Assembly: GCA_948144175.1 (NCBI GenBank)
Contig: CANXME010000298.1
Span: 72,001 to 136,000, forward strand
DNA length: 64,000 bases
Direction: 5' to 3'
Source of the DNA: Closterium sp. NIES-65
Lineage: Eukaryota > Streptophyta > Zygnematophyceae > Desmidiales > Closteriaceae
The notes beneath the pieces are model-generated. The model did no database searches, was not told where the DNA came from, and saw only the letters and a list, made by a program, of their open reading frames with translations. Every line of letters starts with the position of its first letter. Within the stretch, counting starts at the first letter, position 1. Positions 23,255 to 56,326 of the stretch are shown here, in pieces. A program made the translations under genes and the position numbers.

Positions 23255-26200
23255 ATGGGTCCTCCCGGTGCTGGCAATAGCGAGTCCCAGGAAAGTCCGT
23301 TCAAACCCAATGTTCTCCAAGGGAAAGTCGTTTTGATCACGGGTGAGCCCTTCAGATTACCCTTCGAATCTACACCACTTTCAGCTTCAGCGGAATTTGT
23401 TAACTGGTTCACTCGCTTAGCCTATTGAAGTCACTCGCCTCCCAATTCCGGTCGTACTCCGTGCCCCAACGCATTTACTGCCTCTATCGCTTCCCCTGTT
23501 GATCCGCTATCGCTTCCGAACGCGTCTCTGTTTATTCTCCTCCTTGCCGTTCAGCTAAGGGATTCACCGTGCTGCTGCTGGTCTCCCTGCTGGCGATTTT
23601 CCGAGATTGCTGCTGCCGTTCATTTCGGCAGCAATAACATTAATAACATATCATTGCGGCTACCTCCTGTTATTGTTGACAATGCGACCGGCGTGTGTGA
23701 CTTTCAGGGGGTGGCTCGGGAATAGGCTTGGAGATCTCGAGGCAGTTCGGCAGGCACGGCGCTAGGCTCGCAATCATGGGTCGTAGGGAGGCGGTGCTAC
23801 GAGCAGCAGCAGACGAGCTAGCGAAGGAAGGGATCGAGGTGGGTTGAGTCTCAGAGTCTTGAGATGTGTCAAAGCTACGGTCGCGATCATGGGTCGGAGG
23901 GGGGCGGTGCTACGAGCAGCAACAGACGAGCTAGCGAAGGAGGGAATCCAGGTAACCACTTGTGGAATTTGCTGGTTGTTATGAATATCGTCTCAGCACC
24001 CCCTTGGTCAAATGTACCATCCATTTCTCACGCCTTGCATATCACTGGGATGTGAAGCGAAAGGAGGACGCTTACAGCGCAGTGGCTGCTGCTATGGAGA
24101 GATACTACTCCAGGCATACGCTGCAGGGTGTTTTGAGAATTCTCAAAAACACCCTACTACTCCAGGCATACGCTATCAGTTTAGTTTTCCCTTGTCTGTC
24201 TATCGACCCACCCTGCAGGCCTTCCCTGTCATGGGTGATGACTCAGACTCTCAAAGCCGCTCACCTGTCTACCGTCCCCTTTTTCTCAGGCCTTGCCTGT
24301 CATGGGCGATGTGAGGCGAAAGGAGGACGCACACAGCGCCGTGGCTGCTACTGTAGAGAGATACGGCCGCCTTAACACACTCCTAACTTCCCCTTGTTGG
24401 TCCGACCGCCCACTTCTCATCTCAGGCCTTGCCTGTCATGGGTGATGTGAGGCGAAAAGAAGACGCACACAGCGCCGTGGCTGCTACTGTGGAGAGATAC
24501 GGCCGCCTAGACGTTCTCATCAATGGCGCCGCTGGAAACTTTCTGGCAGCTGCGGAAGACCTTTCAGTGAATGGCTTTCGAACAGGTAGGCATGCCTCTA
24601 GGCTTAGAGAGGAGAATAGAGGGGCAGAGAGGGCAGAGAGGGCAGAGATGGCAGAGAGGGCAGAGAGGTCAGAGAGGGCAGAGAGGGGAGAGAGGACAGA
24701 GAGGGGAGAGAGGACAGAGGGGGGAGGAGGACAGCGAGGGGAGAGAGGACAGAGAGGGGAGGAGAGAGGGCAGAGATGTGCAGAGAGGTGTAGAAGGGGG
24801 CAGAGAGGCATCGAGAGGTGTAGAGAGTGGCAGGGAGGGTCAGAGAGGTGCAAAGAGGTGTAGAAGGGGGCAGGGAGGTGCAGGGAGGTGCAGAGAGGGC
24901 AGCGAGGCATGAAGAGGCGAAGAGACGCATAGAGCAAGTTGTTTCCGGTTCTCCGTTTCCCTTCCGTTCCTTCTCATCCCTTCCATCCCTTCCCTTCCCT
25001 CTCTCTTCCCGTTTCTCTTCCCTCATTGGGCAGCCCTTCCAGTCCCTGATGTTGATGCCGTTGCCATTCTCAACATGTCCCTTCCCTTCCCTTCCCTTCC
25101 CTTCCCTTCCCTTCCCTTCCCTTCCCTTCCCTTCCCTTCCCTTCCCTTCCCTTCCGCATGCCTTCAATCCAATCTTCATGGTCTATACCCTCCCAGTCCT
25201 TGACATAGATGCTGTGGGCACGTTCAACATGTGCCTGGCTGCCAGGCCGTTCCTGCCACCCAACCATCCACCCTCTTTTCGCGTTCCGCATCCTGCTCTT
25301 CTCATTCCCTTCACCCTTCCAGTCCTTGACATAGATGCAGTGGGTACATTCAACATGTGCCTGGCTGCCAGGCCATTCCTGCAGAGGGGGGCGCGTGGCA
25401 GGGCGGAGGAGGAGGGAGGGGGATCCATTATAAACATCAGCGCTACTCTGCACTACACCGCTGCTTGGTACCAAGTGCACGTCTCGGCTGCTAAGGTGAG
25501 ACAGAGGTATGGCGGGATGGGGTACGGTGGGAGTGGGATAAGGTGGATAGGGGCACGGTGGGAGTGGTGCAAGCTGGGAGTGGGTGTGAGTGGATGAGCT
25601 TTCCCTACTGTAATCTGCACCACACTGCTGCATGGTACCAAGTGCGCGTCATGGCGGCTAAGGTGACAGTGGGGTATGGTGAGCATGGGGTAAGGTGAGA
25701 GTGGGGTAAGGTGAGAGTGGAGTAAGGGGAGAGTGGGGTAAGGGGAGAGTGGGGTAAGGTGAGAGTGGAGTAAGGGGAGAGTGGGGTAAGGAGAGAGTGG
25801 GGTAAGGGGAGAGTGGGGTAAGGTGAGAGTGGGGTAAGGGGAGAGTGGTGCAAGGTGAGAGTGGGTGTGTGAGTGGATGAGCTTTCCCTACAGTAATCTG
25901 CACTACACTGCTGCATGGTACCAAGTGCACGTCATGGCTGATAAGGTGAGTGTTAGTGTGCGTGCACATACGAGGTGCTTTTGAGTTGTGGCAAAATGTG
26001 TGTGTCAGGGCAAAGAAAGGGGGTGTAAGGAGTCCGTGTAGACCTTTTTGAGGCTTCTTTGCACAAACGTTGGCCAGCCATCCCCCACCTTTCCACTCGC
26101 ACACTCTCTCTCCCTCCCCCTCTCCCTCTCCCCTCTCTCCTCCTCACCTCAGGCTGCAGTGGATGTGACTACCTGGTCCTTAGCCCTGGCTGGCGTGGGC

Positions 26201-27307
26201 ATGGGCTACAGGGCATGTCCCAACACATGCATCTGAACCAACACAATTGAACTGAACTGATCCTCCTCCCTCTCTCTCCCACCCTCCCCTTATCCCAGGC
26301 TGCAGTGGATGCCACCACCCGGTCCTTAGCCCTCGAGTGGGCAACGGACTACGGCATCCGAACCAATGCGATAGCTCCGGGGCCGATAGGTTCGACGCCA
26401 GGCATGGCGAAGCTGGCGCCGTCAGAGCTGGGCATCGATGCCGGGGAGCTCAACCCGATGCAGCGCATGGGTGACCCTTGGGACATTGCTATGGCTGCTC
26501 TCTACCTCACAGCAGACACGGGTGAGTGGGTCTGGTGATACACACTGGCAGTCTTGACAGTCATGCAGGTGTGTAAAGCTGGGCATTGATGCCGGGGAGC
26601 TCAACTTGATGCAGCGCATATGGGATGCCTGGGGTATCGCCATGGCTGCGTTTATCTCACTGCTGAGACAGCTAAGTAGTGGTTCTGCTTATATACAGGA
26701 AAGAGGTTTTGTTGACGCAGTGGTTCTTGAGGGGTCTTGTGGATTCGTAAAGCTGGGCTTCGACGCCGATGCATGTGCCCACCTGTACACATCCAGCTGT
26801 ACAGTGGCACATACAGATGTATGTGCCACTATTGCAAATGGGGCGTCGCAGTGTATATCATGGAACGGGGCGACGCTGGTGGTGGACGGGGGGGGCTGGC
26901 TGTACCGGCCGCGTGTGTTTGACAAGGAACGCCAATCCAGACAGGCTGCACCTGGGGCAGGCTTTACCTGCTGCTTCCCTACCTCCACCTCCCAGGGCCC
27001 ATGCAGAATCTAGCTCTTGCCCCTTCGTTTCACTCTCTCCCCCTCCCCTCCAATCCTCTCCTTCCCTCCCCCTCCCCCTATCCCCGTACCCCCCCCCTCT
27101 CTGCTCCACGCCTTGCACCTGCCAGGGAAGTATGTGAACGGGGCAACGCTGGTGGTGGATGGGGGGGGCTGGCTGTACCGGCCGCGTGTGTTTGACAAGG
27201 AGGTCATCCGGGAGGTGTCGCGTGCCGTGGAGCGCCGATCCAGGCAGGTTGTATCTGGGCCAGGCGCATCTGGTTCTTCTCAGGGTCAACACCGGAGCAA
27301 GCTTTGA
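23255..27307 (+). CDS. DECR2: Peroxisomal 2,4-dienoyl-CoA reductase (SDR family)
   Basis: Six exons (23255-23342, 23708-23838, 24426-24585, 25323-25495, 26299-26521, 27126-27307) join in phase to 318 codons. The family uses NADPH to reduce 2,4-dienoyl-CoA intermediates so that unsaturated fatty acids can pass through peroxisomal beta-oxidation. Visible marks are the Rossmann signature TGGGSGIG near residue 30, LDVLINGAAGNF (the N-G-A-A-G form of the SDR NNAG), NISATLHYTA, the catalytic-type lysine in HVSAAKAAVDATTRSLALEW, and NAIAPGPI. The last residues R-S-K-L are a canonical PTS1 import signal. It is slightly longer than usual (about 290-300) owing to a Gly/Ser tail. Most introns contain exon-edge echoes; the exon copy joined to the rest of the reading frame was chosen. 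The gene name follows the animal orthologue; the Arabidopsis counterpart is SDRb. Confidence 0.93.
23862..23955 (+). repeat. Donor-side echo of reductase exon 2
   Basis: CGATCATGGGTCGGAGG through GGGAATCCAG and a GTAACC donor repeats the end of exon 2 (23770-23844) with a few substitutions. It could still splice in principle. Confidence 0.85.
24020..24375 (+). repeat. Two acceptor-side echoes of reductase exon 3
   Basis: A poor copy at about 24030-24110 and a good one at 24288-24370 repeat CTCAGGCCTTGCCTGTCATG and GAGGACGCACACAGCGCCG. The working copy starts at 24426. Confidence 0.85.
24602..24925 (+). repeat. Purine-rich GAGAGGGCAGA minisatellite in an intron
   Basis: About 320 bases are built from short units such as AGAGAGGGCAG and AGAGGGGAGAGGAC. 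The plus strand is almost entirely purine. It lies just after the exon 3 donor. Confidence 0.85.
25034..25260 (+). repeat. Acceptor-side echoes of reductase exon 4 with a (CCCTT)n array
   Basis: Copies of the exon 4 start (CCAGTCCTTGACATAGATGC) occur near 25038 (degenerate) and 25190 (good, to CCAGGCCGTTCCTGCC). Between them, at 25078-25154, is an uninterrupted CCCTT pentanucleotide array. The working copy starts at 25323. Confidence 0.85.
25600..25955 (+). repeat. Two donor-side echoes of reductase exon 4 around a GTGAGAGTGGGGTAAG minisatellite
   Basis: The exon 4 end (CTGCATGGTACCAAGTGC to GCTAAG and GTGA) recurs at 25612-25670 and 25890-25952. Between them, 25672-25870 is a tandem array of about 16-base units that resemble the start of the intron and repeat a GTGAGAG donor-like sequence. 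Confidence 0.85.
26150..26215 (+). repeat. Acceptor-side echo of reductase exon 5
   Basis: CTCAGGCTGCAGTGGATG and TGGTCCTTAGCCCTGGC repeat the start of exon 5 at 26297, then diverge. Confidence 0.8.
26572..26790 (+). repeat. Donor-side echoes of reductase exon 5
   Basis: AGCTGGGCATTGATGCCGGG and CTCAACTTGATGCAGCGCAT at 26576-26640 copy the exon 5 interior, followed by a degenerate copy to 26675. A third, weaker copy starts near 26750 (AAGCTGGGCTTCGACGCCGA). Confidence 0.75.
26845..26990 (+). repeat. Acceptor-side echo of reductase exon 6
   Basis: GAACGGGGCGACGCTGGTGG and the following GGCTGTACCGGCCGCGTGTG nearly match exon 6 (27136-27200). The echo continues GACAAGGAACGCCAATCCAG, so it carries a deletion relative to the working exon. 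Confidence 0.85.
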
Positions 27308-28241
27308 AATCTGAACTTGTCAGTCTCTCCTGAAGGTCATCCGGTCACATAGAAGAAAGATTTGAAGCGGTTGAGATGCTTCTATTTCTTAGGAGGAAAA
27401 AACCTAGATTTTTGTGGCCTGTAAATTAGAGTGGAGTGGTAGCTGGATAGTAAGGCTGCTTCTGGTTCCAGATCACATCTTTATCAAATTGCATTTTATT
27501 GATTAGTCTGTACACTTTGCGCACTTTTTAATGGGTGCCATCGTCATGTTCGGTTCGGAAACGAAACGTAAACCTGGCGCAAGCGGATTGGCTGAATTGT
27601 TGGGCAGTTGTCTTGTCAGAACCTCGGAACTGTCAGCATGTCATCTCGCGCCGCTGGTGGACCGCTCTTTTCGGCATTCTCAAGGACCTCGTTTCATTCA
27701 TGGCTTGGTGTCCGTTGCGTCCATCTCCATGACATTCTCAAGGATGTTTTTGTGCTCGAAACCGCTCTGCACCAGACCAAACTGCAGCTGCTTATGAATT
27801 TATCATGGTTTCATCATTCCCCGTTAGTCAACACAATAAATGCCACGATAGATATTGTGAATTGTTTTGGCACTCTAACGTGTCAGACTGCACATCAAGA
27901 ATGAAATCTCTTTTTTGTGCTTCAGTTGTCGCTGTCGATTCATGAGATGTGCTCTCCATGGAGCCTAAAGACAGTAAAAACTTCTATTCAGACTTGTACT
28001 GTAGCACTCAGGCTGATAGTAGGCCATTAGCAAAACTTCGCGTCGATAGTACAAATGGTGACGCGCTATCGTCACGACTCTAAGGAACGATTCTCCGTTC
28101 TTGCAACCCCTCGCTAAGCCAGATCAACCCCTCATGCCACGTGGCACGAACGGCCCAGATGGATCGAGAAGCTTAAACGTCAATGTCGTCACTCCAGACG
28201 GAATTAATGACGCCAGAACGACGGCGAAACCTTCTGGTGCC
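27308..28241. other. Intergenic stretch between reductase and PIEZO
   Basis: No coding frame, RNA gene or repeat is supported. It should hold the reductase 3' UTR and the PIEZO promoter; an AATAAA near 27834 is the only polyadenylation-like hexamer I noted and is rather far downstream. Confidence 0.5.
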
Positions 28242-28888
28242 ATGGCCGCGATGCTCCAGATCCTCATTCTCGCGTCGCTCGCCCTTCTCAGGCCTTGTTG
28301 GGTCTATTCTCCCTACATTCTCGCCTGCTGCTGGTGGCTCGCGACTAGACCCCGCCTGTTAGACCTACGGCCATTCAGGTGAAATGATTCGCGCATTCGT
28401 TCCTTGGTCTCCTTAGTATTGTTCTCATAAGGTTTTGAGACATCGCACCTGCACGTGATCGTCACACTCGTTCCCTTCTAGCCCCCTCTCTGTCCCACAC
28501 TTTGCCTTTTTCTCTTCCTTTCCCCTTATCTCCCCTTCTCCCTCTTCGTCCTCTTCTCCCCTTCTCTTCTCCCCATCCCCCACTCCCCCTTTCCCCATGT
28601 CCCAGGCGCCGTGCTCTGTTGCGCGCATACATTGCTCTACACATCCTCGCCCTCTTCCTCTTCCAGCTGCCTCTCTCACAGCACTGGCGGCCCTTCGAGC
28701 AGTGGGGCCAGACACTTGGCCTCTTCCGATTGGACGTGAGGGAGATTCTGGATCCGCGGCAGCTGCTGCATGTGCTGGAAACGGCTCTCCTGCTCTCCGC
28801 CTTTGCACTGGTGAGTGGGGTGGTGTTGGGTGTTATTTGTTTTGTTTTGTTTTGTTTTGCTTTCTTTTTCCTTTCTTTCTCAAACATG

Positions 28889-28920
<32 letters not shown>

Positions 28921-31900
28921 TCGTTTTGTATGGCTTGCTCCTCGTATCCCCGTACCTCTCCCTTCAACTCTTCTCTGTTATTCAGCCTCTCAGCCTTCTT
29001 CTTTCCTCTCCCTTCTCCCCTGTTCCCTCTCCGATCTCTCCTTCACACCAGCTGTCTTCCCATCGCTCCCTCGCTACCTCCCATCATTCTTCCCGCACTC
29101 GGTCCTCTTCCCGCCCACCCTCGTCTCAAGCTCCACGCCCACACTTGCACCCAACCCCTGGCCTCTACCCTCAACGTTCCTCCCAAACCTCCGCCTGGCT
29201 CGGGCCGAGCCTGCCTCTTTTAGCTTCGGAAGCATCCCAGATTCTGTATCAGGTGATTGAGGAGGAGGAGGAGGAAGGGGATGATGCGGCTGGGGAGGAG
29301 GAGAGGGAAGAGGAGGAGGGCGGGGAAGGGGAATGGGAGCTGGAGCAGCAGGAGGAGGTAGTTGCAAAAGCACTAGCAGCTAGAGTGAGAGGGGCAGGTG
29401 TGGGAGGCGTGCAGTGGCGAGGGGGGGCACAGGCTAGGAGTGGGTTTGAGAACAGGGAGCAGCAGAGAGGAGAGAAAGGGGGGAATTGGAGGGGAGAGAG
29501 GGATGTGCCACTGAGGCAACTGGGAGCAGGCAGTGCATCGAGAGGAGAGGAGTTGGTGGGGGGAGGTGCAGACGCTGAGGAGGATGACAATGGGAAGGGA
29601 CTCAGACGCCAGTTTACTGCCTTGTCGTGGTGAACCCCCCCTCTGCCTCGTTGTTCTGAGTTATTACTGGCCAGTTTGAGGCCTCAAAACTCCTCTGTCT
29701 CTGCCTTGTTGTGCCCCTCACAACCCATTCCACCACTCTCAACCCCTCTGGCTCCCCCAGGTCGTCCGCATCTCAGCAGCTCTGTGCCACCCTGGTCGTT
29801 TTCGGCCCTGCAATCTGCACGGCATCGCTTGTCTTCTTCTGCCTCTCCTTTCACTGCCTCCTCGCGTGGCCTCTCCTCTCCTCCCTCCTGCTCCTCCTCG
29901 TCTCCTCCCCCTCAACCACCACTCTCCGCAACACCCACCGCTGCCTCCTGTTCTATCTGCTCGCGTGGCTTATAGCAGCGTACCTAGTTAACATCACACC
30001 TGCTCCATTCCTTCCTCTTGTAAGTCAGTTGTAAATACGTGGCTTGCCGCTTTGTTGCTCCGAGAGGCTGCCTCCTGCTCTATCTGCTCGCATGGCTGAC
30101 AGCATCCTACCTCGTTAATATCTCACCCGTGCCGCTCCTCTTGTAAGTCAAAAGTGAATCCTTTGTAAACTTGCAGCAGTGTGTTGCTCTGTGAGCCTGC
30201 CTTTTGAGTCGACTCAAAAGCCTCTCCTCTTGTAAGTCAAAAGTGAATCCCTTGTAAACTTGCAGCAGTTTGTTGCTCTGTGAGCCTGCCTCGTCATCTC
30301 TTCCCTCTTTCCCCTTGTGCTTCTTCCCTCTCCTCCTCGCTCCCTTTTGCCTTACAGGTCACCATCTGCCAAGCTATTGGGCTGCATCGCTTCCCCAATC
30401 CAGCCCTCCTCCTTGCTCTCCACTTCACCACAGCACTCCTCCTCACAGCCTACGTCTTTGCCTGCACCGCCATGCTTGCCTCTTCTCCCTCCTCCTCTGC
30501 CTCTTCTGCCTCCTCTTCCTCCTCCTCTGCCCCTATCACTTCCTCCTCTTCCACCTCTGCTGCAGATGCTTCTGCTGCTTCTGCAGCAGGGAGCATTGAC
30601 AGGGGTGACAATACGGGAGGGATCAGCAGTGGTGGCGAAGCAATGGCTATGCCAGCAGCAACACAGGACAGAGATGCAGTGGCAGCAGAAGTGGCAGCGG
30701 AACTGGCAGCAGCAGGGCATGATGGGTGGCTGTGCTTCCTGCTCTCCTTCTCCCTCTGGGCTGCCCGCCTGCTCGCCTTCTCTGCCTTTGTCCTCCTTGT
30801 GCTTGTCCACGCGGCAGACAAGCTCGCCCTGCTGCGCGCCCCCTATGGTATGTGCAGTTCATAACGTGAATGCACATGCATGTCATGTCACATGAGGGTG
30901 GGGCACAAGCTGTGGCAGGGTCTCTGGGCTGCCCGCCTGTCCGCCTGTGTATGCGTACTGCTGCAGTGCTGCTGCTAGTGTAGCTGCTGCTGCTGGTGTA
31001 GCTGCTGGTCTACCCCATATGGTGTAATTTGAGAGAATGCAGGCCGATTTTCCATCTTTTGAGGCGCCTCGAAATTGTTTCCTCTATCTTTTTCCGCCCC
31101 TGCAAACCCCTTTATGCGCTGCTATCATGATGGGCAGTGCTACTACTGGTGATGCTGCTGGTCTACCCCTCACGAGCCCATGCTGTCTACTCAGCCTGCA
31201 TCGCCTATTCCTCCCTGCATCTTCTACTGCTCTTTGCTGCCACTGACCCTGCATTGGGGCAGCTCCCTCTGCCCGCTTACTGGAAAGCCCTGCTGTCACT
31301 CCTTGGTGAGTTCAGTAACCAACTGGTGAGTCCTCTCTCCTCACTTGTCCTACCCTCCTCCTTGCTGCACCTGCTGCTGCTTTTCGCTGCCACTGAACCT
31401 GCCAACACTTATCTCCCTCTGCCGCCCTACTGGAATGCCCTGCTCTCCCTCCTTGATAAGTGAAGTGGGTGTAAGGACATTCTCAGTAACCAGCTGGTGA
31501 GTCTTCTTTCCTCTCATCCATCTCTCATCCAGTTTCCCTACCCTACTCCTCATTGCACCTGCTGCTGCTCTTCGCTGCCACTGAACCTGCCATCACTTAT
31601 CTCCCTCTGCTCTGCCGCCCTACTGCAAGGCTGTTCGCCCTGCTGTCACTCCTTGGTGAGTTCAGTAGCCAGCTGGTGAGTCCACTCTCTCTTCGCCTGT
31701 CTTACCCTCCTCCTTCCTTCCCACACATGCGTGCTGCACCTTCTGCTGCTCCTTGCTGCGCCTGCTGCTGCTCTTAGCTGCCACCAACCCTGCCTTGGCG
31801 CATCTACCTCGGCCATCTCACCAGTTACCACTGTGCCTTTTCACCCCGTATTTTCCCCTTCCCCACCGCACGTCGCTCCCTCCTCCCTCCCCACAACCTT

Positions 31901-43900: not shown

Positions 43901-44259
43901 TCCTCACCCCATACCATCCAGTACCTTATCCACTCCGTCGCCCTCCCCCACCTATTACCTTCCTCCGCTCTACCCCCCTCCTTCCACCGCCTCCTCACCA
44001 GCTGTACCTCCCCCAGCTGGCCCCTCCCCCGTGGGTCCTGTGCTGTCTGACAGTATAGAATCCCCCATGCTCCCCCCTGCTTGTACTGGTCCTTCTTATA
44101 ACGCGGTTATGGAGAGGGCTAGGGCTGCTGCTGGGAAGGGATTGGTTGGTAGGGAAGGGGAGTTGTGGGGAGGAGGAGAAGCGGGAGGGAGAGTTGAGGG
44201 GGTGGCAACAGCACCCCCTTCATTCTCCCCAGATTCAGGAGCAGCAACAGTCACAGGAG

Positions 44260-44290
<31 letters not shown>

Positions 44291-47200: not shown

Positions 47201-47435
47201 GTTCAACTTTTTGCTAGCGCATGCTGATGGCGTGGCAGCACCTGCTGATGTGGCAGTGCCTGCTGACGTGGCATTGCCTGCTGATGTGGCAGGAGCTAAA
47301 CAGAGAAGAGGAGGCCACGGTGGAGGTGGTTCAAGAAAGCATGTGCGTTTCGAGGAGGACGAAGCAGCAGTGACTGAAACGCAGCAGCACCACCAGCAGC
47401 ATTATCAGCAGCAGCAGCAACAGCCGCATTATCAT

Positions 47436-47476
<41 letters not shown>

Positions 47477-50400
47477 GCATTATCAGCATGAGACTCAACA
47501 GTGGTCTCAACATGAGCAGCTGCAAGAGCAGCATGCACTGGTGTTGCATTCATGCGACTATCCCCTGTGCGTGCGAGTGCACAGCGTGCAATGCGCTGGC
47601 TCTCTCAACACTTCCTCACTCAACAGCACCGCACTCAACACCTCCGCTTCTGTGGCAGCCAACGCACATGCTGCTTCTTCTGCTGCTGGTGCGCCTGAAA
47701 GTGAACCCCACCCTTCCTCCTCTCCTCACGCTCCTCCTCAGTCTCCTACTCACTCGCAACTCCCTGTTACTGACACTCTAGTAGTGGTCCTTGAGGTGGT
47801 TACCACCAGCAACACTGCCACCACCAGCAACACTGCCACCACCAGTGCCACCACCAGTTCCCCTGCTTCTGTCTCTGCCTCCCCTCCTGCCGGATCGGGC
47901 TCCCCCTCCGCCTCCTCGACAACCCAGCACGTCTCCTCTCAGCCGCACATGTGGAATGACACGTGGCAGTCCCTCACGCCATCGGCTGACGTGGCAAAGA
48001 GGCTCGGGAGGTTCATGAGCGGGGGAAGGCCGGGGAGTGGGGGAGAGGGAGGGGAGGAAGGAGGAGGGGAGGGCAGGGGGGAGTTGGTGAGAGGAGTGGG
48101 TGGTGTGGGTGGGCGAGGGAGTAATTTTACAGCTGCTGCTGCTAGTGGCATCCTGGGAAGGGTGTTTGGGTCGCGCCGTGTGCAACTCGCCTCAGTTGTT
48201 GCAGGTACAGTGTGTGCTCTCAATCTCAACTCAATAAGCACGCGATTGTCACTCAGTCAGCATTTAATGAGCCGATTATTCAGGCGCCTGAAAAAGTGCC
48301 ATGTGCAGCAACTCATGCAGTGCTCAATCAGCAATCGTTCAGCACACGATCAGCATTCTCGCCTGCTTCTGCGTGGGCCACTTAACCTTCGCCAGTCTGA
48401 TCCTTCCAAATTAGTTCTGGTCCGGCCCCCAACCTTCCTCCCAGGAGGTCGCAGGGAGATAGACTGCACCCCCACATCTTCTGCATCGACATCCTCGCTT
48501 TCTTCTACGGGGGGCTCTTCTACCAGTCGGCCGTCCATGCAGTGGCCCACTAACAAATGTTACCCTTTCTTCTCCTCTGTTTCCTATTCCCTTCCCATCA
48601 TCCCAGGAGGCAGAAGGGAGATAGACCTATACCCCTACATCTTCTGTATCGACATACTCGCTTTCTTCTATGTCGGGCTCTTCTACCAGTCGGCCGTGCG
48701 AGACAGGTCGCCCTTTGAGGAGGTCATTCACACGGGGGACCAGTTCCCCTCCACCTACGTTGCGGTTCTCATGGTACGTACGATCCGCAGCAGAATGGCC
48801 TAGGGGTTTGGACAACGGTATGCCATGTCATGGTAAGTGCTGTTTTTCATACCAAACCCCAAACCCAAATCCCCATCCCCCCATTCCCCCATTCCCCATC
48901 CCCCCTACAAGCAGACGCAATTCTTCCTCATAGTCACCAACCGCATTCTCTACCTGGTCTTCAGCGCACCCCTGCTTCCCCCCTCCCCCCTCTCCACTCC
49001 CCACCCCCCCCCGTCCCCCATCCCCCCTACAAGCAGACGCAGTTCTTCCTCATAGTCACCAACCGCATCCTCTATCTGGTCTTCTCCGCCCCGCTGCGCA
49101 TCCTCTACCACCTCACCTCGCTCCTCCTGCACCTCGGCTACCCCATGCGCCTCTTCTGGAACGCCAACCTCATCGTCTCCCACAACACCATCCCCTCTCC
49201 TTCCCTCCCTTCCCCTTCCCTTCGCTCCCGTTCTCTCCCATCTCCTGCACTCCCCTCCCTTTCCCACCTTCTCCTCTCCCTCTCCCTGCCTTCCACTCAA
49301 TCCCTGTTCCTTTTCCCCCTCCCGCCTTCCCCATCCCCCATCCCCCCCCCCACTATACCCCATCCCCCCTACAAGCAGACGCAGTTCTTCCTCATAGTCA
49401 CCAACCGCATCCTCTATCTGGTCTTCTCCGCCCCGCTGCGCATCCTCTACCACCTCACCTCACTCCTCCTGCACCTCGGCTACCCCATGCGCCTCTTCTG
49501 GAACGCCAACCTCATCGCCTCCCACAACACCATCCGGGCTTACCTCGCCATCAAGTCCATCTCCCTCGCGCTCTCTGCGCTGCAGCTGAAGCACGGTCCG
49601 CCAGGGCCGGCGAGCAAGGCGACGCCGTTTCTGACAAGGAGGGCCACGTGGCTGAGGTGGCAGCTGTTCCGGGTTTACCGCATGCTGCCGTTTCTCTACG
49701 AGCTGCATCTGATTCTCGACTGGTGGTGCACCAAAACAACTCTGCCTCTCTATGATTGGCTCAAGGTATGATCTTGGACAGATGATAGTGCTGTCAGCGT
49801 CGAGGCAGTTGTTCCGGGTTTACTGTATGCTGCTGTTTCTCTACGAGCTGCATCTGATTCTCGACTGGTGGTGCACCAAAACGACTCTTCCTCTCTACGA
49901 CTGGCTCAAGGTACGCTGCTCGCTAGCAACGTTGTACTGTGACTGGGCATGCTGTTAGCAATGCAATGCTGTGCTTGCGGAGATAGCTAACACAACAAGA
50001 GCTTGACTACAAGAAAGGCATAAGGTGTTGGGTGATCTCTGCGTTCCTTAGTTGTTTGCTCGTGTTCACACTACTTGCGCATTGATGGGGAATTTTGGCA
50101 AGAGTTTCACTAGCAAAGATTGACAACAATGGTCCACAATACAAAGCAACAATGGATTACACCAGATGCTAGCAAGCATGCAGGCCGACTGCCAGCGCAG
50201 CACGGTTGACCGCATTCCAGCAGTGCAAGGTCGATTGCACTCCAGCAGGGCAAAGTCGCGGTCTGCCAACGCTGCAAGTCGACAGCGTGCCAATGCTGTA
50301 GCAAAGCAGCTGAACAGCGTTGCATTTGCATGACAGCAATGCACCTGCTTCGCAGGTGCTCGCAGCTGATTGGCGTGCTGTGCCTCGCAGACGCCAAGTT

Positions 50401-53400
50401 GACCATGTGCCCACGACTGCACCTGATCCTCCATGTCGACCTCGGGATACCACACCGAGGTCGGCTTCGCAAGAATCTTCTGAGCGACTCTCGCGCTCCC
50501 TGCAGTGCCCATCGCCCGGGTAAGTGAGTCGACCGGGCAACCAGGTTGACGCCACCACGTCAGTGTCCAGGCACCCAGGTCGGCGTCCAGGCGCCCAGGT
50601 CAGCGTCAAGGCGCCCAAGTCGGCGTCGAGACGCCCAGGTAGGCGTCCCCATCCTCCCAAGACGACGACTGCTATGTCGACCCTGGTTGAAGTCGGCCAC
50701 CGGCGCCCGGCGTCGTTGGCTTCGCAGTGGCCCTCGTGCAGGTCGATCAAGTCGTCGACCTGCGCGCCCAAGTCGGTGTCTGCAGAAGATCGGCTGCACC
50801 TCCCGTACACTCGACCACGACATCGGCTCCGCCCAAGCAAGGACGGGGCCAACACACAACTCCCGTTGACAGTGCTCTTAGCGCTGCAGCTCAAGCACGG
50901 CCCAGCTGGGGCCTACGAGCAAGGCGACGCCGTTTCTGACCAGGAGGGCCACGTGGCTACGCTGGCAGCTGTTCTGGGTTTACCGCATGCTGCCGTTTCT
51001 CTACAAGCTGCATCTGATTCGCGACTGGTGGTGCACCAAAACGACTTTACCTCTGTACGACTGGCTCGAGGTATGCTACTGCTAGCCTGCTAGGGAGTGA
51101 TGCATGCTATGCTGTTAGCAATGCAACGCTGTGCTCTCAGCTCTGCAGCTCATGCACGGGCTGGCCGGCCAGGCGAGCAAGGCCACGCCGTTTCTTCTAA
51201 GAGCTGCATCTCATTCCCCTGCTTCTTGACTGGTGGTGCACCAAAACCTCTCTGCCTCTTTGCGACTGGCTCAAGGTACGATGCCAACATCAAAAGCCTG
51301 TGCCTTGCCCTGTCTGATTGCTAACTCTCTCCTGTCATCTCGAGGCCTCCACTCCTGACTCTACACCTCTACGCCTGCCCTCATCCTTCTGCTTCTCCCT
51401 CCTCCTTCCTTCCTCCACTCCCCCCCAACAGTTGGGAGCAAATATACGCCAGTCTCTACCTTGTTACCTGCGATGACTCCTCTTGTTGCCCTGCACCTTG
51501 CACTCCCACTCTCCTTTCCCCTCCTCCTTCCATACAGCTGGAAGACATATACGCTGGTTTCTACCTCGTCACTTGCGATCGCAAGATAGCGCGGGCGGGG
51601 CACAGGCGACAACACACCCCTGCGCCTTCTCTCCCCATGTCTCTGCCTGTCTGTCACCACTCTCCTCCCCTCCTCATTCTCACAGCTAGAGGACATATAC
51701 GACAGTCTCTACCTTGTCACCTGCAATCGCAAGATATAAGGCAGCAGGAGCAAGGCTATGCCAGACTGCCTTTTGTGCTCTGCCTACATTGCTCTATCTG
51801 TCTTCAACCATTCCACCCCCCAACAGCTAGAGGACATCTACGCCAGTCTCTACCTCGTCACCTGCGATCGCAAGATAGCGCGTGCCGGGCACAAGCCGGG
51901 GCAGCCGCAGGGGTGGGGGGTGAAGCTCATGGGAGGGGCCTTCTTCTTCCTCGCTTTAGTCACAGTCATCTGGGCGCCCATGCTGGTGAGTCTCGTTATT
52001 GTCACGTCACAACTGGGAGTGATGTTCCCTGCTCCTCCCTCGCCGTAGTCACATCCATCTGGGTGCCAATGCTGGGGCGTCTCGTTATTGTCACCTCTTT
52101 AGTCACTTTTCGTATATCTGTGATGATATTGCTTCTCACTCTATAGGCACAGCCATCTGGGCGCCGATGCTGGTCATTGTTGTTTTAGTCCCATGCTGTT
52201 ACAGTCACACACACGGCGATTTTCTCAAGGCACAGTTGATACGGGAGTCGCCTTCTTCTTCCTCGCTATAGTCACAATCATCTGAGCGCACATGCTGGTG
52301 AGTCATGGTATAGTCACACAGCTATTATCACTAGTTGACAGAGCGATTGTTGCATCACTATAATCACAAGCCATCTGAGTTGACTTTTGAGAGGCAAAGG
52401 CAATTGATGCGTCGCTATAATCACAGGCCATCTGATCACCCATACTGGGGCGTCCGGTTACTGTCCCGTGCTGTTATTGTGACGTCTGGAGTAGTCACAC
52501 TCTGTACCCCCTTTTTGTTGAGGCGCCTCTAAAAGCGCCTTTAAAAGCGCCTCAAAAGTGCCTCATAAGTAGCCTTAAAAGATGTAGCCGCAGTTGACAA
52601 CAATACTGCTTACACACTCTGTACCCCCTCTGTCCTCCCCTCTCCTTCACCCCCTCCGCAGATCTACAGACTACATCAGCGGCAGCCCTGCCAATACCCC
52701 AATCTGGTGACAGAAGTGCGAGTCAGCCTGGTTCTTCAGACCTGCTCCGGCTCCGCCCCTCTCAGATCTGTGAAGGAGGGCAGGAGCGCCCGCTGCTAGA
52801 CCCTCTGCTTCACCTTCCTTCTCGCCTCCCCTTTCCCCCCTCTCTTTCGCCCCCTTTCCTTTTCGCCAACTACCCCAATCCAATCTAGTGACAGATGTGC
52901 GAGTGAACCTGCTCTAGCTCCTTCCATATCTCTTCCACACCCCCCCCTCCTTGTCTGCGCAGATCTACAGCAGCGGCAACCCCGCCAACTACCCCAATCT
53001 GGTGACAGACGTGCGAGTCAACCTGGTCCTGCAGACCTGCTCCGGCTCCTTCCCCATCTTTGAGGGCGGGCAAGAGCGCCTGCTGCTGGACCCGCTTCTC
53101 AACCCAGGGCCCGCAACCCCCTTCCAGCTCACGGGTGTGGATTCACAGCAGCTGCAGGAGATGCGTTTCCTGGAAGGTTCCTTTACGGATGTTGCAGAGG
53201 AAGGTTCCTTTGCTGGCCGTGAGAAGGAAGGTTTGGAGGATGCTAAGGAAGGTTTGCGGGAAGTTGCTAGGGATGCAGTGGAAGGTTCCTGGAACCAGGG
53301 TTCCTACAGGGATGAAAGTCGTCGGACACTCACTGAAACTGAATACTCTGGTAGCGGACCGCCTTATACTGGTAGCGGAACTTCTTATACCCCACAGCCT

Positions 53401-54413
53401 GGGCCTGTGCTTGTACCCTTTACAATCATGCCAGGTGCATTGGACCACGGTTTGGCCGCTGACAGCAGTTCTGATGTTCAGTTACCACCAGCAACCACAC
53501 AGTCTCCCCCTCTTTCCCCCGCCTCTCCGCCCCTCCCTCCGCCCTCTCCTCCCCTCGCTCCTCCCTCTCCCCCACCCCCACCTCGAATCCCCTCCTGGAA
53601 CGTCTCAGACGATCCTGTACTGAATTCCACGGGGTATTTACCCGTCGATATGCGCCTGGTGTGCGTTTACCCAGACTCCCTCTCCCTCTTTCAGCTGACA
53701 CCCCCTGCTGAGAGCCGCCTTAGAGAAGCACTTAGAAGATCGGCCACAGGAGGGGGAGGCGGCAGAAGCACGAGGCGAAGGGTAGGCGGAAAGTATAGAC
53801 TGAGTGGAGGGAGTATAAGAGATCTGTCAGGAGCATCACACCTAGCAGTATCCTTCCCGTATCACCCAATTCAACCCTCACTCTCTTCCATCCAACCAGC
53901 CTCCTCCCGTCGCTCCCTCCAAGCCTCATCCCGAGCTTCCTCCCAAGCCTTCTCCCGAGCCTCTCTCTCTGGTCCGCCGGACCCATGTGCGCCGAGCCTG
54001 ATCGTCCAATGGTGGTTCACGCGCCCCCGCCCCATCCGAAGGGAAGTGGCATCATGGGAGGAGGTCTATTCCGGCCTGCCCCCCGCGCTGCTGGCTGATG
54101 GGCTGCTGGGGATACTGGAGGGGAGGAAGGGACCTGCTGCTGCTGGTGGAGGAGCTATGGGGTTGCTACTTCCGGAGTTATATCCGGTCTACTGGAAGCT
54201 TCCTGGGTTCGGCAAGGCGAGAGAGCTGGAAGCTTCCAAGGTAAGGCTAAGGCTGACTCTAAGCGTGTGTGTCTGGGGGCATTCACTGGTGGTGGGTGCT
54301 GTAATGTGGTATTCTCCCTCCTGACTCCCTCTACCCGTCGTCCTTTTCCCCCCGTGCGCCCTGACTCACAGGTTCGATCCGCCTGCTGCCTACAACTGCA
54401 GGATGACTCCTCT

Positions 54414-54484
<71 letters not shown>

Positions 54485-54660
54485 CGGCGGCGGCGGCAGC
54501 AGTGGCAGTGGTAACAGTCGTTGGTGGGTGCTGCATTGTGCTCCTCTCCCTCCTGACTCCACCGGTACTCTCGGTGTGTGTTCTTACAACACATCGCAAA
54601 GTGCCACCCTTTCCCGTGCCGGCATTGGCTGGGGCAGCAGCAGCAGCAGCGGCGGCGGCG

Positions 54661-54691
<31 letters not shown>

Positions 54692-56326
54692 CGTATGGGA
54701 CAGTGTCCAATGGGGCAGGAGAAGGGGGTTAGATTTAGTGGAGGCACGAGGAGAAGGAAAGGGTGGTGCAGGGAGGGAGAGGAGGCTGGAGGAGAGTGAG
54801 GGTGTGAGGGCGTTGGAGGCATGTGGAGAAGCATCAGGGCCTGCTGCTATCACTGTTTCAGAAGAAGTGCCTGGTAGGTGTCGTGTCTGGTGGGTTAGTG
54901 CTGTGCTGCACGCTTGCTTGGTGGGTGGGTGGTTATTAACCAGATGGGATAGGCGGGCAGTAAAGGGTGTGAGGGCGTTGGAGGCGTGTGGAGAGGCATC
55001 AGGGCCTGCTGCCATTACCATGTCTGAGGAAGTTCCTGGTATGTTCCTGGAGTGTTAGGGGTGGCGATGCAAACCTTCAGCATCACGGGACTGTACGTCA
55101 CGTTTGTGCTCGCGCTCCTTCCTTCTTCCTCTTATTCCATCTCCCCTCACCCATTCAAATGTTTGGGGAAGCAATGCAAACGTTGAGGGAAACCAATCAC
55201 AGGGCTGTGTGTCACGTTCATGCCTTCCTTTGCTTCTTCCCTCTCCACTTCCTCCCTCCGCCCATCTTCCACTCAACTCACATCTACCCTAACATGCAGC
55301 CGGGGTGCTAGGGGAGGCGATGCAGGCCTTGAGCATCACGGTGCCGTACATCACGTTCATGCTGCCCTTGAGCTGACTCATTTGCTTCTTCCCTCTCCCC
55401 TTTCCCCCTCCCGCTGTCTCCCATTCAACCCTCCTCTTATCCCAACACAGCCGGGGTGCTAGGGGAGGCGATGCAGACATTCAGCATCACGGGCCTCTAC
55501 GTCACATTCGTGCTTGCTCTGGGGCGACTCATTCGCTCACAGAGTTCTGATCTTCGCCTCAAGATACCCTACGAGAACCTGCCCTCCTGTGAAAGGCAAG
55601 TACTTCTCTCATGCGCCTTTGAAATAGGCACCTCAGAATTGTCAGGCGCCTTAGGCACCTCAGAGCCTTAAGAATCAGAGCTCTGGACTTCGCCTCAAAA
55701 TACCCTACAAGTATCTTCCCTTCTGCGTAAGGCAAGTCCTTTGTAGGCACCATTGGAATAGGCACTCTAGAACCCTCAGGAACTGAGCTCTGACCTTCGC
55801 CCCAAGATTCCCTATGAGAAACTGCCCTACTGCAGGCAACTCTGATTTAAACCTCTGAAATAGGCAGGCAGAATTTGCAGGCACCCTAGGAACCTCAGAA
55901 AAATAGTTCTGGTTTTTGCCTCAGTAGGTTCCGCTAAACTCTACGGTCGTGGAAATCTAGTGGACATCTCTAGTCACAGGTAGAGGAAGCGAGTGAACAT
56001 CATTTGGACAAGCCACATCTTTGGCTCACCGTTTCTCATTCCAGATGGGCCTTTCTTCCCTTATATGTTTCTTTCCCTTTTCTGTTGCTCTGATTGTTTC
56101 TTTTTTAACAACATTTTTTCTTTCCATATCCCCATCCATGTCTATGCCGATACGTGTGTCTATACTCCCAACAACGAACAGGCTCATGGCTATATGTGAA
56201 GATTTATATGCAGCACGAGCAGAGGGGGACCTGGAGCTGGAAGAAGGGCTTTATTGGACTTTAATTAAAATATATCGCTCACCGCATGTGCTTCTTGAAT
56301 ACACCAAGGGTGACAAAGCTGATTGA
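28242..56326 (+). CDS. PIEZO: PIEZO mechanosensitive cation channel, 19 exons, about 4,478 aa
   Basis: Exons: 28242-28378, 28606-28810, 29052-29629, 29761-30019, 30358-30847, 31138-31325, 32173-32395, 32828-34029, 34549-35610, 36359-37004, 37573-38357, 43329-48204, 48607-48773, 49376-49765, 51827-51985, 52963-54240, 54372-54873, 55451-55595, 56182-56326. All phases agree. PIEZO is a trimeric stretch-gated cation channel; plant forms act at plasma or vacuolar membranes. Family marks are many hydrophobic blade segments, PPYFVQV (exon 12), SLTPSADVAKRLGR, LEDIYASLYLVTCDRK, the cap start IYSSGNPAN (exon 16), the inner helix LYVTFVLALGRLIRS (exon 18), and the C-terminus AICEDLYAARAEGDLELEE. Plant homologues are near 2,500 aa; the excess is low-complexity Ser, Gly, Ala and Gln, mostly in the 4.9-kb exon 12. 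The N-terminus is less certain: homologues have roughly 130 more residues before the first matched helix. Confidence 0.93.
28888..28921. repeat. (TA)n microsatellite in PIEZO intron 2
   Basis: A TA run of about 30 bases follows GTATATACATATA and ends at TCG. An imperfect TTTTG run precedes it at 28836-28858. Confidence 0.9.
29941..30292 (+). repeat. Donor-side echoes of PIEZO exon 4
   Basis: The exon 4 end (TGCCTCCTGTTCTATCTGCT to CCTCTTGTAAGTCA) is copied at about 30069-30150. The intron after that copy (GTAAGTCAAAAGTGAATCC to GTGAGCCTGCC) is copied again at 30228-30292. Confidence 0.85.
30202..30219. repeat. Perfect 18-bp intronic palindrome
   Basis: TTTTGAGTCGACTCAAAA, identical to 2215-2232 in a different gene 28 kb away, lies between two intron 4 echoes. 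Confidence 0.85.
31057..31074. repeat. Intronic palindrome, GAGGCGCCTC type
   Basis: TTTTGAGGCGCCTCGAAA is an 18-base palindrome with one mismatch pair, in PIEZO intron 5. Confidence 0.75.
31345..31800 (+). repeat. Three donor-side echoes of PIEZO exon 6
   Basis: The exon 6 interior and end (CTGCTCTTTGCTGCCACTGA to CAACTGGTGAGTCC) recur at about 31360-31505, 31550-31685 and, degenerate, 31735-31800. Two copies keep the CAGCTGGTGAGTC donor. The exon 6 donor at 31326 was preferred over CTTGGTGAG at 31306 because only it is in phase with exon 7. Confidence 0.8.
31905..32580 (+). repeat. Echoes flanking PIEZO exon 7 on both sides
   Basis: An upstream copy (CCCAGGCCATCATCCCAGC to CCCTTCCCATGGCCGCTGCT) spans 31918-32050. 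A downstream copy (ATGGCCGCTGTTCGAGCTTG to AAGGGCCCTCCATGT) spans 32463-32575. Exon 7 itself is the copy at 32173-32395, chosen because both phases fit. Confidence 0.75.
32700..32750 (+). repeat. Acceptor-side echo of PIEZO exon 8
   Basis: GTATCTCTGCTTGGCATACC and CTGCTTTTGCAACAGA match the exon 8 start at 32830-32870. Confidence 0.8.
34095..34185 (+). repeat. Donor-side echo of PIEZO exon 8
   Basis: TTTGGGTTCCAGGTGGTGGT to CACAGTGCTATTCTGC repeats 33957-34030. The donor position reads CTGCTGGTGGATGG instead of CTGCAGGTGAGG. Confidence 0.85.
34308..34500 (+). repeat. Two acceptor-side echoes of PIEZO exon 9
   Basis: CATCTCCTCTTGTGCAGTG followed by a CTRGGCYTTR-like start recurs at 34311 and 34421 before the working exon at 34549. 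Both echoes keep the CTTGTGCAG acceptor and part of TACGAAGACACTGCTATTAG. Confidence 0.88.
34857..34975 (+). repeat. (GGA)n tract coding for poly-Gly in PIEZO exon 9
   Basis: An almost pure GGA run, in frame, gives about 40 consecutive glycines in a cytoplasmic-type loop. It is the longest homopolymer in the protein. Confidence 0.9.
35620..35930 (+). repeat. Donor-side echoes of PIEZO exon 9
   Basis: GATTTCATGTAAGC-like donors recur at 35672-35690 and 35860-35880. Each comes with the following CTCTATGGAGTT-type intron bases, and the second with the preceding CACACTTCTTTTCACT. Confidence 0.8.
35931..36358 (+). repeat. Four tandem acceptor-side echoes of PIEZO exon 10
   Basis: Units start at 35931, 36053, 36175 and 36284 and end at the working exon. 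The first two are 122 bp each with no difference I can see; the next are about 109 and 117 bp and diverged. Each holds AACATTGTCTCGCTGCTC, a pyrimidine stretch, an AG, and GTGGTCGTGCTGTACCTACT or a variant, so each repeats the intron end plus the first ~60 bases of the exon. Confidence 0.92.
37050..37345 (+). repeat. Donor-side echoes of PIEZO exon 10
   Basis: AGGCGGCCCCACCCGCCCAAGA to GACTGCTGGCTCGGTGAGTT at 37059-37160 repeats the exon 10 end, which encodes a CxxCW...CxxCW motif. Shorter copies of CAGCACTGACTCGAAGGAACC follow at 37255-37285 and 37311-37333. Confidence 0.88.
37366..37391. repeat. Perfect 26-bp intronic palindrome
   Basis: CGACTTTTGAGGC followed by its exact reverse complement, in PIEZO intron 10. 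It is the best member of a family with a GAGGCGCCTC or GAGTCGACTC centre and TTTT/AAAA arms. Confidence 0.9.
38430..38688 (+). repeat. 5' LTR of the intron 11 copia element
   Basis: TGTTAGAAATAGG to TTTCTATCA, with a TATATC stretch near its start. Confidence 0.93.
38689..38700 (+). other. Primer-binding site, exact initiator-Met tRNA match
   Basis: TGGTATCAGAGC follows the 5' LTR immediately. Confidence 0.93.
38859..39164. mobile_element. 306-bp hAT-type MITE, highly palindromic
   Basis: The ends TAGGGATGAGCAA and TTGCTCAACCCTA are near-perfect inverted repeats, flanked by the perfect 8-bp duplication CCATGGGT (38851-38858 and 39165-39172). The interior is full of CGAACACG and CGTGTTCG in both orientations, so the whole element could fold on itself. 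There is no coding frame. It is not closely similar to the hAT element at 11964, so the source transposase is elsewhere. Confidence 0.93.
39280..42564 (+). pseudogene. Copia Pol remnant: integrase, RT, RNase H
   Basis: The integrase zinc motif H-H-R-L-G-H with C-L-D-C (39495-39620), core motifs VIIDDYSRY (39754) and SDGGGEF (39880), then a frameshift near 39970. RT follows with FKARYCAKGFTQKHG (41205), a frameshift near 41275, PMYGLKQAPREWH (41458) and the catalytic YVDD (41599). RNase H has CEAELYAGTMGAQEARW (42229) and ADLFTKSL (42481). There is a stop near 41815. It is inactive. Confidence 0.9.
42576..42585 (+). other. Polypurine tract of the intron 11 copia element
   Basis: CTAGGGGGTG immediately before the 3' LTR. 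Confidence 0.75.
42586..42843 (+). repeat. 3' LTR of the intron 11 copia element
   Basis: Matches 38430-38688 with scattered substitutions and one small indel, then the target copy GTGCG. Confidence 0.93.
42855..42975 (+). repeat. Donor-side echo of PIEZO exon 11
   Basis: GTGGATCTGACCATGTTTGT to TCCAAGCAGGAG and GTGAGG repeats the exon 11 end at 38259-38362 with few changes. It encodes L-F-Q-Q-I-L-L-F-T-S-K-Q-E in place of L-F-Q-Q-V-L-L-F-T-T-K-Q-E. It has a donor but no obvious acceptor after the copia insertion, so use as an alternative exon is unproven. Confidence 0.88.
43091..43300 (+). repeat. Two acceptor-side echoes of PIEZO exon 12
   Basis: CACAGGAGTGGGAACGACAG (43097) and ACAGGAGCGGGACAGGCAG (43213) precede the working ACAGGAGCGGGACAGGCAGA at 43325. 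Each continues with a GTGGCAG..GAGCATC.GCGGCAGCT stretch. The second has an in-frame TGA. Confidence 0.88.
48279..48292. repeat. Intronic palindrome, GGCGCC centre
   Basis: TTCAGGCGCCTGAA, a 14-base perfect palindrome followed by AAA, in PIEZO intron 12. Confidence 0.65.
48440..48545 (+). repeat. Acceptor-side echo of PIEZO exon 13
   Basis: CCCAGGAGGTCGCAGGGAGA to CTTCTACCAGTCGGCCGTCC matches 48602-48700 with a frame-neutral set of changes. It then diverges and has no donor. Confidence 0.88.
48896..49200 (+). repeat. Two acceptor-side echoes of PIEZO exon 14
   Basis: CCCCTACAAGCAGACGCA opens copies at 48903 (about 80 bases of exon) and 49025 (about 165 bases, to CCCACAACACCATC), before the working copy at 49376. 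The second echo is almost identical to the working exon but lacks its 3' half. Confidence 0.92.
49800..51300 (+). repeat. Three donor-side echoes of PIEZO exon 14
   Basis: Copies end at donors near 49911 (CTCAAGGTACGC), 51070 (CTCGAGGTATGC) and 51274 (CTCAAGGTACGA). Each carries GACTGGTGGTGCACCAAAAC, and the last two include more of the exon interior (CTGCAGCTCAAGCACGG). They alternate with the intron start (GCTGTTAGCAATGCAA), so the unit spans the junction. The 896-bp insertion at 49976 splits the array. Confidence 0.9.
49976..50871. mobile_element. 896-bp LTR-like insertion (solo LTR or short non-autonomous LTR element)
   Basis: A TG..CA segment (TGCGGAGATAGC to CCCGTTGACA) is flanked by GTGCT on both sides (49971-49975 and 50872-50876). 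The next exon 14 echo shows the empty site, GCTGTGCTCTCAGC, at 51130. There is no coding frame I can support. At about 50565-50660 it holds four or five imperfect 20-base units of GGCGCCCAGGTCGGCGTCCA. Confidence 0.8.
51425..51760 (+). repeat. Three acceptor-side echoes of PIEZO exon 15
   Basis: Copies of CAGCTAGAGGACATCTACGC and CTCTACCTCGTCACCTGCGA occur at about 51428, 51536 and 51685 before the working exon at 51827. The 51536 copy keeps the frame for some 25 codons; the 51685 copy reaches TAA. Confidence 0.9.
52025..52460 (+). repeat. Donor-side echoes of PIEZO exon 15
   Basis: The exon 15 end (CTTTAGTCACAGTCATCTGGGCGCCCATGCTG) recurs in decaying form at about 52045, 52143, 52255, 52360 and 52420. 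Only the 52255 copy keeps CATGCTGGTGAGTC. Confidence 0.78.
52659..52930 (+). repeat. Two acceptor-side echoes of PIEZO exon 16
   Basis: GCAGATCTACAG to GGCAGGAGCGCCCGCTGCTA (52660-52800) and CAACTACCCCAATCC to GTGAACCTG (52867-52913) repeat the exon 16 start at 52963. Palindrome-like GAGGCGCCTC repeats lie just upstream at 52519-52560. Confidence 0.88.
54414..54482 (+). repeat. (AGC)n tract coding for poly-Ser in PIEZO exon 17
   Basis: About 22 pure AGC triplets in the reading frame, followed by a GGC stretch and a second AGC run at 54643-54690. The flanking motif TGGTGGGTGCTG at 54523 is also echoed in intron 16 at 54291. Confidence 0.9.
54960..55045 (+). repeat. Donor-side echo of PIEZO exon 17
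   Basis: GGTGTGAGGGCGTTGGAGGC to GAGGAAGTTCCTG and GTATGT repeats 54801-54879. The frame is open and the donor is present. Confidence 0.9.
55046..55375 (+). repeat. Three acceptor-side echoes of PIEZO exon 18
   Basis: Copies of GGGGTGCTAGGGGAGGCGAT and CAGCATCACGGGCCTCTACG start near 55056, 55159 and 55303, ahead of the working exon at 55451. The third keeps a GCAGCCGGGGTG acceptor. Confidence 0.9.
55596..55601 (+). promoter_or_regulatory. GC-AG splice donor of PIEZO intron 18
   Basis: Exon 18 ends GAAAG and the intron starts GCAAGT, the consensus of GC-AG introns. Only this donor gives phase 2 into the last exon, restoring E-N-L-P-S-C-E-R-L-M-A-I-C-E-D across the junction. Confidence 0.85.
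55672..55845 (+). repeat. Two donor-side echoes of PIEZO exon 18
   Basis: CTTCGCCTCAAAATACCCTAC to GTAAGGCAAGTCC (55688-55740) and CTTCGCCCCAAGATTCCCTA to CTGCAGGCAACTC (55795-55843) repeat the exon end. The first echo also keeps the GC-type donor. Confidence 0.85.

Follow-up and report, generated by a model that had tools for sequence, protein, structure and literature searches.

In a 64,000-nucleotide stretch of the genome of Closterium sp. NIES-65, a unicellular alga related to land plants (positions 72,001 to 136,000 of contig CANXME010000298.1, hereafter the window), the exon boundaries of two neighbouring genes, a peroxisomal 2,4-dienoyl-CoA reductase-like gene (SDR) and a PIEZO gene, are for the greater part repeated in the adjacent introns as one or several copies, designated here as echoes. 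This observation, first made in a preliminary description compiled from the sequence itself, is confirmed: when 80 nt of each exon edge were compared with the adjacent intron and only alignments scoring above all 100 dinucleotide shuffles were accepted, echoes were found at 14 donor and 15 acceptor edges out of 23 each (about 14 of each had been announced), with scores of 44–160 at the 29 edges and 50 copies in total, 24 on the donor and 26 on the acceptor side. We consider it likely that they are what is left of tandem duplications, about 90–165 bp long, that occurred locally and repeatedly inside Closterium genes. Intron growth and the origin of splice sites are usually inferred from rare single cases, and here they become countable, at 29 of 46 edges; some of the copies retain former exon sequence and thereby offer direct tests of exon history.

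Exon edges and their copies in the SDR and PIEZO genes

Exon models of both genes, which occupy the plus strand, were hand-built from the window sequence. SDR (23255..27307) comprises six exons with a stop-free frame of 318 aa, the product of which matches the Pfam domain adh_short_C2 (1.8e-48), while PIEZO (28242..56326) comprises 19 exons with a stop-free frame of 4,479 aa matching Piezo_THU9_anchor (5.6e-62) and Piezo_cap (1e-42). A deposited Closterium sp. NIES-65 protein (P0002) shows 100% identity over 87% of SDR, as far as the start of exon 6, implying that an independent annotation picked the same exons and passed over the copies: the echoes of SDR introns 2–5 are omitted from it, intron 1 being devoid of them. 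Beyond its SDR part P0002 runs on into PIEZO exons 2 and 3, representing an SDR-PIEZO fusion model. Marchantia PIEZO used in tblastn matched exons 8–16, 18 and 19 in order, and four further matches fell inside introns 14 and 17; the readable names among the 120 relatives listed all belong to land plants, and a separate listing gave one Closterium fragment. The window was read throughout apart from the inside of a CTT array (59201–62299), its other elements (copia, hAT, zinc-knuckle) bear names assigned by eye or taken from the preliminary description, and genome searches were run against an assembly of 874 Mb in 2,400 contigs. Closterium cells are haploid, a circumstance on which no conclusion here rests.

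The number of echo-bearing edges hardly depended on the type of shuffling (15/23 donors and 15/23 acceptors with another one), and chance similarity is ruled out, since none of 457 intron segments found a copy when the target was shuffled. The described polarity, with acceptor copies preceding the exon and donor copies following it, was reproduced as well: wrong-side controls gave 3/12 (scores of 26, 30 and 32, barely exceeding their shuffles) and 0/12, and templates from exon middles gave 3/24 (scores of 125, 43 and 38). Sampled by depth into the exon, copies were detected for 27/46 edges at 0 nt, 20/46 at 40 nt, 5/45 at 80 nt, 3/37 at 120 nt, 1/28 at 160 nt and 0/64 at 200 nt and deeper, so that they rarely extend more than 120 nt into the exon. 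Many copies keep the splice dinucleotide, as had been claimed: among the 45 of 50 copies taken into this count, 14 of 22 donor copies are followed at once by GT or GC, with one doubtful case in SDR intron 5, and 12 of 23 acceptor copies are immediately preceded by AG. Frame-breaking indels are present in 18 of 47 copies. The proposed increase of divergence with distance does not hold in general: where several copies belong to one edge, divergence is greater in the farther copy in 13 pairs and smaller in 11.

In SDR, alignment of edges with introns placed a donor echo of intron 2 at 23874..23951, with a decayed palindrome (23857–23874, three mismatches) in the spacer before it, and three acceptor echoes of the same intron (24032, 24219 and 24290) within 24030..24372, the most distant of which retains two residues of the ortholog from strain NIES-68. 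Intron 3 has an acceptor echo at 25197..25256, intron 4 has two donor echoes (25611 and 25894, within 25611..25945), both with Met at the position of Ser181 of the present exon, and an acceptor echo at 26153..26230, and intron 5 has a donor echo at 26577..26677 and an acceptor echo at 26860..26928.

In PIEZO, donor echoes of intron 4 occupy 30067..30291, where 72-bp direct repeats flank a palindrome (30201–30220), and an acceptor echo of intron 5 lies at 30985..31016. Three donor echoes and one acceptor echo were found in intron 6 (31377..31972), donor and acceptor echoes in introns 7 (32465..32746) and 8 (34099..34484), one donor and four acceptor matches in intron 9 (35804..36302), including a 122-bp array at 35929–36202 (99% identity), and donor echoes in intron 10 (37053..37278). 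Intron 11 carries a donor echo and acceptor echoes (42864..43284) and a copia-like element recognised by eye (38430–42843, gtgcg at each end), which sits between exon 11 and the donor echo of this exon; the element gave no match when searched against plasmids. Further downstream there are an acceptor echo of intron 12 (48445..48523) and acceptor echoes of intron 13 (48915..49190), the second being 99% identical over 162 nt across the junction, three donor and three acceptor echoes of intron 14 (49804..51736), four donor and two acceptor echoes of intron 15 (52028..52914), one donor and two acceptor echoes of intron 17 (54964..55379), and donor echoes of intron 18 (55676..55832), the first with a GC donor. 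Intron 18 itself (the last one, 55596–56181) also has GC as its donor. Introns near the 5′ ends of the two genes (23343–23707, 28379–29760) bear echoes at none of their 8 edges, as against 29 of 38 elsewhere (P 9e-5).

Local repeats, counted irrespective of exon edges, are also present in the two other genes to which the preliminary description had extended the phenomenon. The zinc-knuckle gene is densely filled with local copies (85 of 127 segments) and the gene at 57773 contains an 88-bp array (62640–62902). A CTT repeat of about 3.6 kb (58926–62510) lies, judged by eye, within an intron of the latter.

Head-to-tail duplication and turnover of the copies

Local matches are direct in 107 cases and inverted in 5, with none in three shuffles, and the copies are head-to-tail duplications. 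The period between neighbouring copies, measured on 39 pairs over the whole window, has a median of 123 bp with the middle half at 103–146, and the spacers range from overlap to 66 nt, bearing in mind that the pairs were preselected for spacers of at most 70 nt and that decay of unit ends blurs their limits. When 48 copies were aligned together with their flanks, 16 gave uninformative self-matches; 25 of the other 32 proved to be copied along with 12–138 nt of intron flank, at 62–87% identity, and in the remaining 7 the flank was absent, very short or unresolvable. After subtraction of the displacement due to copies (entered by hand for each intron in the simulation of placement, SDR intron 3 left out), the median length of 17 of the 18 echo-bearing introns falls from 586 to 142 bp, each of them keeping 8–343 bp; the five echo-free introns measure 131–365 bp.

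The following course of events is suggested. A duplicated unit spanning a donor or an acceptor would affect neither the reading frame nor the outermost splice site, so that a junction-spanning duplication may survive, its extra copy becoming intron, and a duplication inside an exon would survive only if in frame. The exon-internal duplications fit the same survival filter by their periods, all five of those picked being multiples of three: 129, 105, 117 and 96 for the in-frame tandem duplications in PIEZO coding exon 12 (44826..45589), and 135 for one in a gene that has no exon model; two of the five overlap. Copies might then multiply via unequal exchange between repeats. As their most likely origin we propose fill-in repair of staggered double-strand breaks, and insertion or capture of a palindrome at such breaks would probably account for some of the duplications, seeing that a palindrome stands between direct repeats elsewhere in the genome. 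From the scheme offered in the preliminary description, the enlargement of introns by short tandem duplications that persist chiefly when they cross a splice junction and leave decoy splice sites behind is retained, but not the steady gradient with distance. Its suggestion that copies supply raw material for new exons finds a partial counterpart in a deposited protein model of strain Naga37s-1 (P0241), which begins inside an echo, the third donor echo of PIEZO intron 14 falling in the start of it; such a model is a prediction and not proof of splicing. Decoy edges of this kind may explain the broken or fused deposited Closterium gene models, such as P0002.

A second copy of the region (23010–58929) was found at about 1% divergence on another contig (C1541, segments L009–L012); the comparison covered window positions from 20000 up, and the long matches begin at 23010. 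All 47 echoes tested are present there. Over about 36 kb the two loci differ by 12 indels of at least 9 bp, all of them repeat changes: in the second locus SDR intron 5 is longer by 186 bp, read as one more copy of the acceptor echo, and PIEZO intron 9 by 1,062 bp of the 122-bp array, and the others concern a 20-bp array and short repeats, the exonic ones being multiples of three. Array turnover continues, gain and loss being inseparable between two loci. A 28-bp near-palindrome of unrelated sequence (26803–26830) is situated just upstream of the 186-bp excess, and the second locus aligns across the copia-like element of PIEZO intron 11. Divergence between the loci amounts to 2.24% in intergenic DNA, 1.09% in introns, 0.83% in echoes and 0.36, 0.43 and 1.11% at the first, second and third codon positions of exons, respectively; within echoes the corresponding codon positions gave 0.53, 0.98 and 0.99%.

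When the SDR copies were set beside the ortholog of NIES-68, a copy kept the NIES-68 residue lost from the NIES-65 exon in six copy-site comparisons (five codons in four copies, two of which are 96% alike and not independent), had the residue of the exon in 11, and matched neither in two. The acceptor copy at 24030 is mixed, and its neighbour at 24287 agrees with the exon at 6/6 sites; such different agreement of copies at one edge indicates that they were made at different times.

A recurrent palindrome and other possible origins

Palindromes, of which the preliminary description makes no mention, stand at some of the seams between copies. The recurring sequence, TTTTGAGNNNNCTCAAAA (18 bp, TTTTGAG-NNNN-CTCAAAA), has 30,327 exact sites in the genome, compared with 4 for the reversed control. 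The window holds four exact sites (2215, 24131, 30202 and 37370) and 19 palindrome-like sites with at most three mismatches, against 2.66 expected. Those in the zinc-knuckle gene (2215 and 2276, with a further one at 2345 by reading; 2215..2362, plus strand) stand between tandem copies, the one at 24127..24155 on the same strand (TTTTGAGAATTCTCAAAA) is flanked by a 20-bp direct repeat, measured at the same site in the second locus (L009:3950), and a near-palindrome (45492–45513) marks the seam of the period-96 duplication in PIEZO exon 12.

Outside the window, direct repeats hug 15 of 16 palindromes in 15 loci picked for the palindrome (the head of the site list, all from one contig). For random positions the corresponding figures are 112 of 400 within these loci (P 1e-7) and 47 of 300 in six unselected stretches. 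When sites from the window, from the second locus and from one unselected stretch are included, the count reaches 20 of 22, with repeats of 17–146 bp; a context found more than once entered the count a single time, the second locus standing in for window sites 24131 and 37370, and the 22 are not independent, as several palindromes are members of one array. These figures refer to the nearest repeat, a criterion adopted after an earlier one, based on the best repeat, had given 7/20 versus 57/560 random positions. The cores are loopless and self-complementary in 20 of 22 cases (a slightly different deduplicated set), the arms extend at least 3 bp beyond the 18 bp in 5 of 22, and in an unselected stretch (L028) 47-bp repeats (89%) surround a 30-bp palindrome. 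Inside introns the anchored palindrome score did not separate palindromes from random intron positions, being uninformative there because introns are repetitive everywhere. The simplest reading of the palindrome is that of an insertion or filler accompanying a target duplication of 17–146 bp, which makes it a candidate cause of the echoes.

A stronger version, in which a palindromic mobile element, a perfect palindrome of 18–30 bp generating target-site duplications of 17–146 bp, was the main driver and the echoes are its old products with the palindrome decayed, is possible though doubtful. The genomic abundance of the sites, their self-complementarity and the hugging repeats suit it, as do the decayed palindromes at 23857 and 35785, each directly before an echo, and those at seams of coding exon 12. 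Of the 19 palindrome-like sites in the window 7 fall in a mapped seam, and of the 4 exact ones 1, as against 13% of random intron positions, so that their placement at seams is suggestive only. Several counts speak against a main role: among the 39 adjacent pairs of the window only 3 have a recognisable palindrome in the spacer, the 122-bp array is free of palindromes, and the 12 indels between the loci include no palindrome insertion. It follows from the spacers and the array that palindromes are not needed for every duplication, and either the palindrome decays or it represents one of several duplication routes. We tentatively put forward, at a comparably modest level of confidence, that the 18-bp palindrome is a minimal, possibly protein-templated insertion into staggered breaks that duplicates 17–150 bp and drives intron growth. 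If so, exon edges would carry a layered fossil record of the sequence they once had, and the palindrome would belong to a type of insertion element absent from the literature searched.

The explanation preferred here, local tandem duplication within genes, has also to face results that it does not predict. The end of PIEZO exon 17 is one of them: among the tblastn matches listed for Marchantia PIEZO, the only one there overlaps the echo and not the exon. Another is the distribution of mismatches between exons and copies (one best copy per edge, 29 edges, 23874–55832), which number 52, 42 and 152 at codon positions 1, 2 and 3, the ratio of 0.31 (bootstrap 0.23–0.40) contrasting with about 0.61 expected for a neutral copy beside an exon that accepts silent changes only. 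Faster mutation of silent exon sites was rejected as the reason, as third positions diverge by 1.11% and echoes by 0.83%, whereas a factor near 4 is needed. The copies may either have been born from a diverged allele or have passed through an early constrained phase. An origin from diverged alleles or lost paralogs via unequal recombination, with mostly silent differences from birth, would account for the third-position excess and for the residues in common with NIES-68, and it agrees with echoes now drifting like introns (0.83 versus 1.09%), unlike the first and second exon positions. Nevertheless it appears rather unlikely, since a genome search with PIEZO exon 14 gave two full-length copies, both 100% identical to the query, and no diverged donor, and since tandem adjacency and common intron flanks suit local copying better.

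A uniform duplication process, the null model of the preliminary description, would be even over the genome and merely easier to see at coding edges. Within the window an even background is rejected: 60-base segments with a copy within 500 bp make up 218/457 in gene-body introns and 100/482 in exons, and 0/147 in intergenic DNA, 0/27 in 5′-end introns, 0/205 in copia, 24/782 in the transposon block and 0/51 in the remaining stretch. As regards the accompanying claim that the spliced transposase genes are free of echoes, copies are few in the transposon block and absent from copia. The intergenic sample comprises only 3.25 kb, may include constrained untranslated regions and promoters, and diverges faster between the loci than introns do; about 25 direct near matches were expected in it and none was seen. 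What weighs on the other side is that among six unselected stretches of 6 kb local repeats cover 27% of L028 and 51% of L029 (0, 0, 4 and 0% in the others), and ten open frames of these two gave no Pfam match, so that local repeats are not restricted to sequence with a recognised gene. Uniform placement predicts 10.7 of 51 or 5.9 of 28 events lying wholly in introns, and 1–2 were seen (P 0.01–0.05 relative to 5.9, the observed number being a reading of the match list). A preference for junctions beyond geometry is only weakly indicated, because units of about 125 bp, set against ancestral introns of about 140 bp, must reach a junction in most viable events, and the profile of exon depth is, by our reading, that expected from evenly placed units of such length. 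Still, with empty intergenic, 5′-intron and copia sequence beside filled gene-body introns, and with the echo-free edges of 5′ introns, a uniform background is improbable.

Selective retention of echoes, for use as decoys or as alternative ends of exons, could draw on the low first- and second-position divergence of the copies and on GT or AG at the exact edge of about half of them, but the frame-breaking indels, the near-intron divergence of echo positions between the loci and the omission of SDR echoes from P0002 leave it very little probability. Tandem arrays are error-prone in assembly, and yet an assembly artefact can be practically dismissed, because another contig carries every one of the 47 copies tested, at about 1% divergence, and one echo is visible in the Naga37s-1 protein model.

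Relation to known systems

A literature search, conducted at the level of search listings and with most subscription papers outside its scope, returned no entry naming exon-edge copies or this palindrome; the parts consulted of one Closterium genome paper deal with gene copy number and genome size (PMC10407611). Sequence-family introners resemble the present case as lineage-specific large-scale intron remodelling (PMC9860276, PMC7789003), yet, according to the portions of these papers available to us, they spread one sequence family over many genes, whereas echoes derive from their own neighbouring exon. They were rejected as the source here: two DNA queries, an echo array and an exon together with its echoes, matched the two PIEZO loci only, in a search that sets a lower bound.

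Abundant short palindromes are described from introns and intergenic DNA of Volvox carteri organelles, where, in the sections seen, they are held to be selfish, average 50 nt with a loop of 3–5 nt, and are called inert in the nucleus (PMC2670323). Both green algae have very many of them, but the Closterium palindromes are loopless, 18–30 bp long, flanked by direct repeats and found at 30,327 sites of the assembly. In the potato RdRp gene, as far as the excerpt consulted goes, a duplicated intron-exon boundary made an intron, and an 83-bp duplication occurred within an intron (PMC4974935); the boundary is tandemly copied within the gene in both cases, whereas in Closterium existing introns grow, the copies turn intronic and no new intron was seen. 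A close parallel is given by small tandem duplications, an established product of the repair of staggered breaks, reported in plants and mammals, with second and third rounds at one site (PMC5730883, PMC8355091), the former citing earlier work on rice and Arabidopsis; from what was accessible of both, short stretches are likewise duplicated head to tail. The differences lie in the concentration at 29 of 46 edges of two genes, which within the window is limited to gene bodies, and in the recurring palindrome at some of the seams.

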